Assembly: GCA_023512135.1 (NCBI GenBank)
Contig: JAIMAG010000001.1
Span: 62,001-126,000 of the forward strand
Direction of reading: 5' to 3'
DNA length: 64,000 bases
Origin: Terriglobia bacterium
Lineage (GTDB): Bacteria > Acidobacteriota > Terriglobia > Acidiferrales > UBA7541
Shown piece by piece: positions 3,499 to 7,405 of this stretch (positions are counted from its first letter, which is position 1; each line of letters starts with the position of its first letter). Position numbers and translations under genes: made by a program. A model generated the notes under the pieces. It searched no databases, was not told the origin of the DNA, and saw nothing but the letters and a program-made list of their open reading frames with translations.

Positions 3499-3879
3499 TT
3501 ACATCATGGCGCCGAGTTTGACTTCTTCCCACCGGCCGTTTTTCCGAACCTCTACCTTCTTGGCCATGATGGAGCCGTTGTGTTCGGAGCCCTGCACGCG
3601 AATCGTCTGACCGACGAAGTCGGCCAGGGCCGTGGACGGCGCGATGATGGCGTGGAACTTCTTGTCCCTGGTCAGCAGCCCGGCGGGGGAGCCGCCCTTC
3701 AGACACATGGTTCCACAGTTCTTCATCGTGCCATGGTCGTTGTCGGCCTCGCCCACGCTCAGGTAGCACTTGCTGTCCACCAGCGTGCCTTCCAGCGTGA
3801 CGTCTTTCTGGGCCACGCTGACGCCGGCGCCGATGGCCAGGGCCAGGACGAGAATGGGAAATAACCGTGTCAGTTTCAT
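3499..3879 (-). CDS. Small secreted protein of unknown function
   Basis: A 126-residue protein with a clear Sec signal peptide (MKLTRLFPILVLALAIGAGVSVAQ) and a mature domain of about 100 residues. The mature domain has three cysteines in the pattern C...NCGTMC and a hydrophilic C-terminus (VEVRKNGRWEEVKL). It resembles the many small exported acidobacterial proteins with a TLEGTLVDSKCYL-type opening, but the function is not recognised. The start is the ATG preceding the signal peptide with an AGGAGG-like site just upstream; longer starts would mask the signal. It lies 89 bases after the anti-sigma gene and may belong to the same transcript. Confidence 0.75.
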   Translation of the reverse strand: MKLTRLFPILVLALAIGAGVSVAQKDVTLEGTLVDSKCYLSVGEADNDHGTMKNCGTMCLKGGSPAGLLTRDKKFHAIIAPSTALADFVGQTIRVQGSEHNGSIMAKKVEVRKNGRWEEVKLGAMM

Positions 3880-5261: not shown

Positions 5262-5298
5262 TTGCAACCCCAAGCCTGTCCCCCATATCCTATGGGGG
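5262..5298 (+). promoter_or_regulatory. Promoter overlapped by CsoR-type operator palindrome
   Basis: TTGCAA (5262-5267) and TATCCT (5286-5291) form a promoter with an 18-base spacer. The -10 box lies inside a perfect 5-3-3-3-5 palindrome, ccccc-ata-tcc-tat-ggggg (5280-5298), 10 bases before the csoR start. G-tract/C-tract palindromes of this type (CCCC-ATA ... TAT-GGGG) are the known operators of CsoR-family copper repressors, so autorepression by the adjacent gene is the natural reading. Confidence 0.75.
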
Positions 5299-5308
5299 TG
5301 GAGGGGAT

Positions 5309-5620
5309 ATGGCCAGGGCCGCAACGATCTGTTTGCCGCACGTCTATCTCGACCCGGAGGTCGAAAAGGAGTTGCAGGATCGCCTGAGCCGCATCGAAGG
5401 GCACGTGCGCGGCGTGCGGCGCATGCTCACCGAACAGGCTACCTGCGAGGACCTGCTGCTGCAGCTCGCCGCCATTCGTTCGGCACTCACGCAGGTGCAG
5501 GCGCGCCTGCTCGAAAATCACATCGAGACCTGCGTGGCCGATGCCGTGCGCCGCGGCCGCGGCCGCAAGGCGCTCGACCATCTCAAGAGCGCTCTTGCGC
5601 AGGTGATGAAGATGCAGTGA
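5309..5620 (+). CDS. csoR: CsoR/RcnR-family metal-sensing repressor
   Basis: A 103-residue all-helical repressor. Cys46, His71 and Cys75 keep the spacing (25 and 4) of the Cys-His-Cys Cu(I) site of CsoR, and RIEGHVRGVRRML is the family's opening helix pattern. Frames that could add residues upstream would cover the operator palindrome, so the ATG at 5309 is preferred. It heads a plus-strand operon containing a MerT-MerP protein, a CopZ-like chaperone and a glutaredoxin. The inducing metal could be copper or mercury; the C-H-C site fits Cu(I), while the downstream MerTP fits Hg(II). Confidence 0.88.
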   Translation: MARAATICLPHVYLDPEVEKELQDRLSRIEGHVRGVRRMLTEQATCEDLLLQLAAIRSALTQVQARLLENHIETCVADAVRRGRGRKALDHLKSALAQVMKMQ

Positions 5621-5646: not shown

Positions 5647-6393
5647 ATGAAAGAAAAACTGGGGATTGTCGGGGCGATTGCCGCAGCGGTGCTGGCTTCG
5701 GTCTGTTGCCTCGGACCGGTGGTGCTGGCCGGGCTGGGGCTTGGCGCGGTGGCCGCGGCGCAGAGCTTCGCTCCGTATCGGCCGTTGTTCCTGGCCCTGA
5801 CGGCCGTGTTTCTGGGCGTGGGTTTCTACTTTGCTTACCGGAAACCGGAACCGGCCACCTGCGAGGGTCAGGTGTGTGAGACGACGCGCGCTGCCGCGGA
5901 CGGCGAAGGCTGCTGCTCCGGCCGAGCTGCGCAACCAGTTCCCTGCGCTCCGGGCTCGTCCGCAGGACTCACTGCATTGCGCGGAGCGATCGCCATCGAA
6001 GAGTCTTCCACAGGAGGAGAAATCAAGAAAACTTCAACAGGAGGAGAAGTCATGAAGAGAAAACTGGTTTTCGCTGCGATGGTCGTGGCGCTGGTCACCT
6101 CGTTCGGCTGGGCGGCGCAGCAAGCGTCCGAGCCGACATCCACGAAGCTGCAAATCACACAATGTGCGCTGAAGGTAAGCGGGATGACCTGCGAAGGCTG
6201 TGCCGAGGCCGTCAAGGCACGCCTGCTGAAGCTGGAAGGCGTCAAGGCCGCTACCGTGAACCACAAAACGGGTGCAGTCACGGTGGAATACGACGCGAAG
6301 AAAACCTCGCCGGAGAAAATCGTCTCCGCGTTCAACGAGGGCAGCGGAGGCTTCAAAGCCGAGCTGGCCAAGCCAGCCCCGAAACGGGACTGA
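5647..6393 (+). CDS. MerT-MerP-like metal transport protein, read as a continuous frame
   Basis: A 248-codon frame. Residues 1-65 are MerT-like: a membrane segment with the metal-relay pair SVCCLGP and a second segment ending YFAYRK. A Cys-rich tail follows (CEGQVC, GCC). From about residue 136 the frame passes without a stop into MKRKLVFAAMVVALVTSFGW, a signal peptide, and then a heavy-metal-associated domain with GMTCEGC, as in MerP. MerT moves Hg(II) across the inner membrane and MerP delivers it. The product is either a MerTP fusion or, because an excellent ribosome site and ATG lie at 6037-6054, two overlapping products. No merA reductase is nearby. Confidence 0.72.
   Translation: MKEKLGIVGAIAAAVLASVCCLGPVVLAGLGLGAVAAAQSFAPYRPLFLALTAVFLGVGFYFAYRKPEPATCEGQVCETTRAAADGEGCCSGRAAQPVPCAPGSSAGLTALRGAIAIEESSTGGEIKKTSTGGEVMKRKLVFAAMVVALVTSFGWAAQQASEPTSTKLQITQCALKVSGMTCEGCAEAVKARLLKLEGVKAATVNHKTGAVTVEYDAKKTSPEKIVSAFNEGSGGFKAELAKPAPKRD
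6010..6054 (+). promoter_or_regulatory. Tandemly duplicated Shine-Dalgarno element and internal start of the MerP-like part
   Basis: The 12-mer acaggaggagaa occurs at 6010-6021 and again at 6037-6048, a 27-base in-frame direct duplication (translated STGGE...KKTSTGGE). The second copy sits 3 bases before the ATG at 6052, which opens a 113-residue signal-peptide/HMA protein. The duplication probably arose by slippage and may have removed the original merT stop codon. Internal initiation here would release a periplasmic MerP of normal size. Confidence 0.7.
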
Positions 6394-6455: not shown

Positions 6456-6941
6456 ATGTCCAAGACTTGTTGCCCGAACCCTGCGGGTGCCGGCGTGCCG
6501 GCACCCACCTCCCTGCCCTGTCCGGAAAACGGCGCACGAGCGAAGCGGGTCGGCCTGCGGACCGTAAAGGCGTTGGTGCGGCATCTGCCGTTCCGCATGC
6601 CCTCGACGCAGTACTACTTCTGCGAAGCACCAGAGTGCGATATCGTCTATTTTGCGGCAGACCCTTCTGCCCCGATTTTCCGCCGCGCCGACCTGCTGGT
6701 GCGCGTCGAGCCAAAGGAGCCTGGTGAGGACGTGCCGGTCTGTTATTGTTTCGGCATCGCCCGCCGCGAGATTGCGGACGAGCTTGCGCGAACAGGACGC
6801 AGCAGCGCGGCCGAACGCATACGCTCCGAGGTGAAGGCCGGGAGATGCGCCTGCGAGGTGAAAAATCCCTCGGGCCGCTGCTGCCTGGGCCGGATTGCCC
6901 GGGCAGTGGAGCAGCTCCGTGAGGCTTCGTCGCGCGGCTGA
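6456..6941 (+). CDS. CopZ-like (Archaeoglobus-type N-terminal domain) metallochaperone, Cys-rich
   Basis: A 161-residue protein with 13 or so cysteines arranged as CC near the N-terminus, YYFCEAPECDIVYF (about residues 50-63), VCYCFG and a C-terminal CACEVKNPSGRCCLG. This pattern matches the iron-sulfur/zinc domain fused to some CopZ copper chaperones and found alone in mercury and copper operons. The ATG at 6456 has a gaggaga site upstream. Its position directly after MerTP suggests it accepts or buffers the imported or displaced metal ion in the cytoplasm. The family assignment rests on the cysteine pattern and context. Confidence 0.75.
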   Translation: MSKTCCPNPAGAGVPAPTSLPCPENGARAKRVGLRTVKALVRHLPFRMPSTQYYFCEAPECDIVYFAADPSAPIFRRADLLVRVEPKEPGEDVPVCYCFGIARREIADELARTGRSSAAERIRSEVKAGRCACEVKNPSGRCCLGRIARAVEQLREASSRG

Positions 6942-7012: not shown

Positions 7013-7156
7013 ATGAGCCATGGCCCATTCGCTCAACTGACCGGCCTGTGGAACGGCGTTCGTGATGTTGGCCAGCTCGAACCGATGGCCAAACCGCTGT
7101 CGCTGGTGGAAATGCTCCGCCACCACCAGCGAGCCGATATCTACCTGGTGTATTGA
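7013..7156 (+). CDS. Possible small protein between metallochaperone and glutaredoxin
   Basis: A 47-codon frame with start MSHGPFAQLTGLWNGV and end RADIYLVY that keeps the GC-rich third positions of neighbouring genes. It ends 12 bases before the glutaredoxin start. The best ribosome-site sequence (gagagga, 7006-7012) is too close to this ATG and better placed for a second ATG at 7020 in another frame, which hits TGA after six codons. No family is recognised. It could be a genuine small operon protein, a gene remnant or untranslated spacer. Confidence 0.3.
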   Translation: MSHGPFAQLTGLWNGVRDVGQLEPMAKPLSLVEMLRHHQRADIYLVY

Positions 7157-7168
7157 AGCGGAGGAAAA

Positions 7169-7405
7169 ATGCCGGAGAAAAAAATAGTCGTCTACAGCCA
7201 GCCCGGTTGAATCTTCTGCAGCCGGGTGAAAGAGTTTCTTTCCCAGCAGCAGATCGCATTCGAGGAGCGCAACGTGGCGAAGGACCCGGCGGCGCTCGAC
7301 GAGCTCGAAAAGCTCGGCTACGCGACCACGCCGGTTACGGTGATCGACGGCGAGGTCGTGGTCGGCTTCGACCAGCCGAAACTGAAAAAACTGCTCGGCC
7401 TGTAA
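7169..7405 (+). CDS. Selenocysteine-containing glutaredoxin-like protein (in-frame UGA at 7208-7210)
   Basis: Read through one TGA, the 78-residue product is a complete glutaredoxin-family protein. It begins MPEKKIVVYSQPG, then U14-I-F-C17 in place of the usual C-x-x-C, then RVKEFLSQQQIAFEERNV, the cis-proline loop TTPVTVIDGE, and ends FDQPKLKKLLGL. Every expected secondary-structure element continues in frame on both sides of the TGA, and TGA stands exactly where the catalytic cysteine belongs. A SECIS-like hairpin follows at the correct distance. The ribosome site gcggaggaaaa precedes the ATG. Last gene of the metal operon; likely a thiol-redox partner for the metal carriers. A sequencing error (TGC to TGA) or pseudogene is the alternative. 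Confidence 0.82.
7211..7252 (+). promoter_or_regulatory. Candidate bacterial SECIS element
   Basis: Directly after the UGA an RNA hairpin can form. The upper stem is GAAAG (7228-7232) with CUUUC (7238-7242), and the apical loop is AGUUU (7233-7237). A bulged U lies at 7227, then GG (7225-7226) pairs with CC (7243-7244), and an outer CUGC (7216-7219) pairs with GCAG (7246-7249). The loop begins 22 nucleotides after the UGA and has G in its first two positions. Both features, and the bulged U, fit the described bacterial SECIS rules (loop 16-37 nt after UGA, G at the loop start). Confidence 0.7.

Follow-up and report, generated by a model that had tools for sequence, protein, structure and literature searches.

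The window analysed here, a 64,000-nucleotide stretch of the genome of a Terriglobia bacterium (Acidobacteriota), contains a short forward-strand frame that is interrupted by a stop codon and lies next to genes with homology to metal-resistance proteins. This raises the question of whether the stop codon is read as an amino acid and, if so, what the resulting protein might do. The frame (7169-7405) reads MPEKKIVVYSQPG*IFCSRVKEFLSQQQ...LLGL*, with a single internal TGA at 7208-7210, and has a Shine-Dalgarno-like AGCGGAGG 5' of its ATG. Read through the TGA, it becomes a complete redoxin, MPEKKIVVYSQPG-U-IFCSRVKEFLSQQQIAFEERNVAKDPAALDELEKLGYATTPVTVIDGEVVVGFDQPKLKKLLGL, which matches the Pfam Glutaredoxin model (PF00462) from end to end when the TGA is taken as Sec or Cys (63.1 bits, cut-off 22.9) and possesses a UxxC motif, together with a cis-Pro signature (T54-P55) and a cysteine (C17) that are invariant in the homologue alignment. 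This bears out an earlier, sequence-only reading, in which the frame was taken to give a complete glutaredoxin only if the TGA, at the first U-x-x-C position, is read through. In the default list of open reading frames the redoxin appears only as a 59-aa fragment starting past the UGA, and ordinary gene callers miss or mis-annotate such UGA-containing genes. Our overall reading, to which we assign a probability of roughly 78%, is that the locus encodes a selenocysteine (Sec) redoxin that is decoded by SelB with the help of an RNA hairpin, is expressed from an operon derepressed by metal, and acts as a selenol-disulfide reductant under metal stress. The features on which the decoding argument turns are as follows.

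7169..7405, forward strand: predicted Sec-glutaredoxin (NrdH/YruB-type redoxin), 78 aa, active site U14-I-F-C17
7208..7210, forward strand: in-frame UGA at the first catalytic position, almost certainly decoded as selenocysteine (from the homologue alignment and the Sec machinery of the genome)
7225..7244, forward strand: bSECIS hairpin inside the frame, with its loop G at 7234, GG-U(bulge)-GAAAGA-[GUU]-UCUUUC-CC

The name glutaredoxin holds at the level of the PF00462 superfamily, but profile scores show the protein to be NrdH/YruB-like rather than a classical glutaredoxin. The nearest NCBIfam models are YruB, NrdH and UXX-star, and every one of them scores below its curated cut-off: YruB (TIGR02196), the closest named model, reaches 73.3 bits against 88.55, and the UXX-star model NF041212 is a near miss at 62.1 against 66. 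Classical glutaredoxin 3 (TIGR02181) scores lower than the YruB and NrdH models, at 39.8 bits against 90. The nearest solved structures are small glutaredoxins or thioredoxins and NrdH redoxins.

The hairpin downstream of the UGA falls within the limits published for bacterial SECIS (bSECIS) elements, namely a loop of 3-9 nt, a stem of 4-16 bp, a G in loop positions 1-2, a spacing of 16-37 nt and a minimum free energy of at most -7.5 kcal/mol (PMC13188914). Its upper stem is 6 bp long, its constrained energy is -9.4 kcal/mol, and G7234 is the first base of a GUU loop, 23 nt past the UGA; when the loop is drawn instead as AGUUU, G7234 is the second base and the distance is 22 nt. The hairpin had originally been proposed in this second form, with its G and a bulged U taken as bSECIS features. 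While these rules are followed, the bulge is not a feature of the family: the base equivalent to the bulged U7227 is paired (20:36) in most relatives. In the window, the serine codon is TCC, so that 20:36 becomes U-C and the canonical pair is lost; as a result the helix slips by one, U7227 bulges, and G7225-G7226 pair with C7243-C7244. By itself the window hairpin is mildly unusual, since 9.8% of synonymous recodings of the window reach -7.5 kcal/mol, 3.3% equal the real hairpin, and z-scores against shuffles are just -0.4 to -1.8. This is too weak as proof of Sec, and a comparison with relatives was therefore needed. The evidence that goes beyond chance is indeed comparative: many phyla have a TGA at this very codon, the hairpin is conserved and covaries, and SelA co-occurs.

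In a set of 80 homologues drawn from a species-wide collection of genomes, the catalytic codon is TGA in 36, Cys in 43 and Ser in one, so that the cysteine looked for at the TGA position was found, and the TGA itself recurs there across many phyla. The TGA forms come from Acidobacteriota, Chloroflexota, Myxococcota, Methylomirabilota, Rokuibacteriota and others, a range that runs counter to the suggestion that Sec glutaredoxins are confined to a few bacteria. When 297 genomes of the same phylum were searched, exactly one internal TGA was likewise found in many of the best matches.

Most of the Sec homologues share the pattern G-N-GAAAGA-GUU-UCUUUC-N-C at a constant distance from the UGA. On average, 7.1 of the 8 pairs form in 37 Sec sequences (the window included), compared to 3.3 in 43 Cys sequences; these counts include seven Sec sequences whose hairpins are slipped, out of place or damaged (L092, L126, L138, L142, L143, L144 and L148), three of which (L143, L144 and L148) were omitted from the accompanying shuffle test. 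All seven were omitted from the covariation alignment (A2), which holds 30 Sec sequences. Within this set of 30, 94.2% of the cells hold a pair, and double changes are seen at four of the pairs. The covariation score of 0.296 was reached in 0 of 500 shuffles; shuffled alignments gave 0.130 and slid-structure controls 0.03-0.10. RNAalifold recovers the same helix unprompted and, under the coded bSECIS rules, -7.5 kcal/mol is reached by 86% of Sec but 14% of Cys sequences. Covariation among TGA homologues, which had been put forward as a check on the hairpin, is thus borne out by compensatory changes, and the hairpin is much weaker in Cys homologues.

The most telling pair is 20:36, in which a variable codon (for Val, Ala, Glu or Thr) contributes its second base and a conserved serine codon its wobble base; the two covary, GUG occurring with UCA, GCG with UCG and GAG with UCU. 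Such covariation between a serine wobble base and a second codon base is a clean example of RNA structure constraining protein sequence. In L079 and L084, the closing pair changes from A-U to C-G along with a change of amino acids from EF to AW. Separately, three of the sequences left out of A2 (L143, L144 and L148; Acidobacteriota, UPPC type) carry another hairpin, with a GGA loop at +32 nt and within the bSECIS limits, which suggests an independent SECIS.

The genome to which the window belongs (2.83 Mb, 97% complete) also encodes the machinery for Sec insertion, the presence of which had been named as a check: a tRNA-Sec with a UCA anticodon (74 bits), SelA (572 bits), a full-length SelB (395 bits) and SelD (371 bits), with selD lying about 35 kb upstream of the redoxin gene on the contig that the two share. 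This SelD (L018, G000:C44:33623-34558) is probably a selenoprotein itself, as its gene has an in-frame TGA (AKAAG-U-AAK) followed by a stable hairpin. Across genomes, SelA was found above cut-off in 43 of 45 that carry the UGA form, whereas for genomes with a Cys or Ser form the figure is 16 of 31 (kinship ignored, Fisher P about 8e-6). One of the two UGA-form genomes lacking an above-cut-off SelA has a partial SelA at a contig edge; no SelA was found in the L079 genome, a MAG that is perhaps incomplete. Since relatives with the same codon share both a co-evolving RNA hairpin and the selenocysteine machinery, we consider the decoding of UGA 7208-7210 as selenocysteine to be well supported.

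In a phylogenetic tree, the window protein lies among U-x-F-C Sec sequences of Acidobacteriota, Chloroflexota, Myxococcota and Pseudomonadota, and this grouping across phyla suggests that the redoxin spread horizontally. The tree implies about seven Sec/Cys changes, at least three of which are forced by well-supported branches, in an alignment of few columns that leaves many forks unresolved. A plasmid search returned no relative of more than 60% identity, and matches on viral contigs were 32-38% identical. One glutaredoxin-like match, on a plasmid of Acetoanaerobium noterae (NZ_CP154629.1, 422746-422964), coincides with no annotated feature and is possibly another unannotated Sec-glutaredoxin. 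L092 is identical to L052 across the neighbouring genes, and the L088 and L024 proteins are the same. The Sec redoxin of the L092/L052 locus (G005; L092:5001-5219), which is about 65% identical to that of the window, has an extra in-frame TAG at a Gln codon and may be a decaying copy or a sequence error.

The Sec redoxin is the last gene of a run in the order csoR, merT-merP, copZ, 3' remnant and redoxin, all on the forward strand and separated by short gaps.

5280..5298, no strand assigned: candidate CsoR operator, CCCCCATA-TCC-TATGGGGG, a perfect 8-bp inverted repeat directly upstream of csoR (predicted from sequence)
5309..5620, forward strand: CsoR-family metal-sensing repressor (PF02583, 83.9 bits)
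5647..6393, forward strand: MerT-MerP fusion, a MerT transmembrane part with a C-terminal HMA domain (PF02411, 40.3 bits; PF00403, 61.8 bits)
6456..6941, forward strand: CopZ-family Cys-rich metal-binding protein (PF18423 zf_CopZ, 52.1 bits)
7013..7156, forward strand: remnant of the C-terminal part of a protein of 177 aa, to which it is 71% identical over 45 aa

The profile matches confirm the CsoR-MerTP-CopZ operon that had been read from the sequence, MerT and MerP being joined in one open reading frame; the CopZ-family frame has, in addition, a weak Fer2_BFD match that is below cut-off. The MerT, MerP and CopZ of the window are all Cys forms. CsoR regulators commonly sense copper, and a G-tract dyad likewise lies upstream of csoR in L070. 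When tested as a mer operon, the window proved to have the MerT/MerP transport genes, and no MerA was found above cut-off either in the operon or in the genome (best match 311.9 bits against 454.45); the candidates in the genome were rejected as lipoamide-dehydrogenase-like proteins. The 177-aa protein is intact directly upstream of the Sec redoxin in L052 and L092, while a search of the window genome returned the fragment alone and no intact copy. A Pfam search with the protein gave no match, leaving the name 'DsrE-like', given by eye, unsupported. A second selenoprotein upstream (ATG 7020 ... TGA 7038, MAHSLN-U-PACG) was considered and rejected, since the alternative frame (7013-7156) gives the C-terminal end of the protein that is intact in L052 and L092 and since 7030-7090 folds worse than its own shuffles.

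In several bacterial phyla, genes for Sec redoxins repeatedly adjoin genes for resistance to mercury, copper and arsenic, as in the following loci, in which the MerT assignments rest on BLAST and, like the YHS, ArsC-like, ArsR-like and CcdA-like names, given without a profile search, are less certain.

L119: MerT, CopZ, Sec redoxin, flavoreductase, YHS, ArsC-like (a Pfam search with the MerT gave no match)
L120: end of MerA, MerE, Sec redoxin
L080: MerT/P, MerB (PF03243, directly upstream of the redoxin), Sec redoxin, MerT
L074: ArsR-like, Sec redoxin, MerT
L131: MerP, Sec redoxin, MerT
L078: Sec redoxin, with MerA downstream (511.7 bits, above cut-off)
L100: Sec redoxin, with MerA downstream (494.1 bits, above cut-off)
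L072: heavy-metal/copper ATPase directly upstream of the Sec redoxin
L098: Acr3 arsenite pump shortly upstream of the Sec redoxin
L070: CsoR, and further on a CcdA-like gene followed by the Sec redoxin

With one set of BLAST queries (MerT/B/C/E/CopZ or MerA-like), mer-type matches were found at 12 of 36 Sec loci and none of 43 Cys loci, a post hoc count in which several queries were chosen from the Sec loci, the loci differ in length and the Cys loci come from other lineages than the Sec loci. Since the query set was partly drawn from the Sec loci, this is not a blind test, and we treat the recurrent association of Sec redoxins with metal resistance in several phyla as a strong lead.

Some of these loci hold further in-frame TGA codons. 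In L119, a MerA/glutathione-reductase-like flavoprotein downstream of the Sec redoxin (L119:1989-3383) has its second redox Cys replaced by a TGA at 2169 (GGTCPLRG-U-DPKK); a hairpin with a GGUA loop follows after 17 nt, and the protein is a candidate Sec flavoreductase. A MerA-like flavoprotein adjoining the Sec redoxin in L084 (L084:5455-6912) has a TGA at 5617 where the first redox Cys would stand (GGT-U-INVGC), and a hairpin with a GGU loop follows after about 32 nt. In L070, a thioredoxin-like, apparently exported protein, encoded upstream of the Sec redoxin between csoR and the CcdA-like gene, has an in-frame TGA at 3681 (LEPT-U-PMC) and is a second candidate selenoprotein of that locus.

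How might such a protein work? SelB, bound to the hairpin at 7225-7244, would bring Sec-tRNA to the UGA at 7208-7210. The csoR-merTP-copZ-redoxin operon is probably derepressed by metal through CsoR, as judged from the gene order and the CsoR-like operator. Fold and neighbours point to a redox role, and the likeliest job of the protein would be that of a fast cytosolic selenol-disulfide reductant under thiophilic metal stress, keeping reduced the metal-binding cysteines of the operon proteins (with MerT, MerP and CopZ as presumed partners) as well as proteins of the cell at large. Sec14 would attack a disulfide or metal-thiolate, Cys17 would resolve the resulting selenenylsulfide, and thioredoxin reductase or another thiol system would recycle the enzyme. 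The mercury relay envisaged in the sequence-only reading is plausible; the absence of MerA from the genome argues against the standard mercury-reduction pathway.

Two alternatives deny that the codon specifies Sec at all. A pseudogene, or a TGC or TGT misread as TGA, might be suspected in a draft genome where the upstream neighbour is a degraded remnant and one relative carries an extra TAG, yet the frame is otherwise intact and free of frameshifts, and the TGA recurs at the same codon in independent genomes of many phyla together with a covarying hairpin and SelA, making this explanation very improbable. We give almost no credence to near-cognate suppression, or to insertion of an amino acid other than Sec: this is a logical possibility for which we found no support, and it sits poorly with a complete Sec system in the genome, a catalytic Cys at this position in homologues and a hairpin specific to UGA forms.

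The remaining alternatives accept Sec and differ over function. The Sec14/Cys17 pair might serve chiefly to bind Hg(II), Cu(I) or an organometal through its soft Se and S ligands, passing metal between MerT/MerP and CopZ or a downstream enzyme instead of reducing disulfides. The recurrent pairing with MerT, MerP, CopZ, MerC/E, a CopA-type ATPase and MerA/MerB would fit such direct handling, as would a 2026 review in which a possible metal-ligand role is given to the Sec of UXX-star selenoproteins (PMC13188914), and, without a MerA above cut-off, imported Hg has no known reductase in this genome. Against this, the second motif Cys and the T-P cis-Pro signature are kept, consistent with ordinary redoxin chemistry, and in L070 the Sec redoxin adjoins a CcdA-like thiol electron-transfer protein; we regard direct metal handling as possible but on the whole unlikely. 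That the protein is a general selenium-dependent antioxidant or an NrdH-like redoxin for ribonucleotide reductase, merely adjoining metal genes, strikes us as distinctly doubtful. YruB and NrdH are its best named-family matches, and NrdH is among its solved relatives, but metal-resistance neighbourhoods recur in several phyla, against none in the Cys homologues examined, and the neighbours, as read by eye, showed no nrd gene.

One could also imagine, tentatively and with the odds against it, a horizontally spread, cross-phylum clade of selenoredoxins dedicated to metal resistance, in which Hg/Cu/As detoxification would rely on a selenol instead of a thiol as working ligand or reductant, joined in some lineages by Sec MerA-like flavoreductases. 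This would amount to a selenium-based mer-type branch, which in the window may stand in for the missing MerA. If the link to metals is true, the metal resistance of environmental bacteria would be influenced by their supply of selenium, and a specific selenol-versus-thiol chemistry of Hg and Cu would be tied to a defined operon.

Parts of this picture are known already. Sec-glutaredoxins are an established selenoprotein family (PMC1794560, PMC9312934, PMC13188914), and members such as the characterised clostridial enzyme and WP_010943784 (UxxC, PF00462) have the same fold, a U-x-x-C motif and an in-frame UGA with a downstream SECIS; the window protein differs in falling below the cut-off of each NCBIfam family that it hits, YruB and NrdH being nearest, and in its metal-resistance operon. 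The UXX-star families (NF041212, NF041211 and NF041114), for which a metal-ligand role has been proposed, likewise consist of small proteins resembling glutaredoxin, in which the equivalent position is occupied by Sec or Cys, and the window protein scores below their cut-offs (62.1 against 66, 54 against 100 and 30 against 72, respectively), as it does for YruB. Our search found no description of an association between a Sec redoxin and metal resistance (a mer operon) in the open-access literature, most subscription papers lying outside it. The window shares MerT and MerP/HMA with mer operons, and its relatives MerA, MerB and MerC/E, whereas the window has CsoR in place of MerR and no MerA in the operon or above cut-off in the genome. 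Metal-linked selenoproteins have been described, including a mercuric transport protein (Sec MerT), Sec forms of CopZ, the SAO system and the 'putative mercuric reductase' NF041115 (PMC13188914). As in the locus studied here, these place Sec in the handling of Hg, Cu, As or organometals, with selenoproteins clustered in one operon, whereas in the window it is the redoxin that would carry Sec, beside a MerT, MerP and CopZ that retain Cys.
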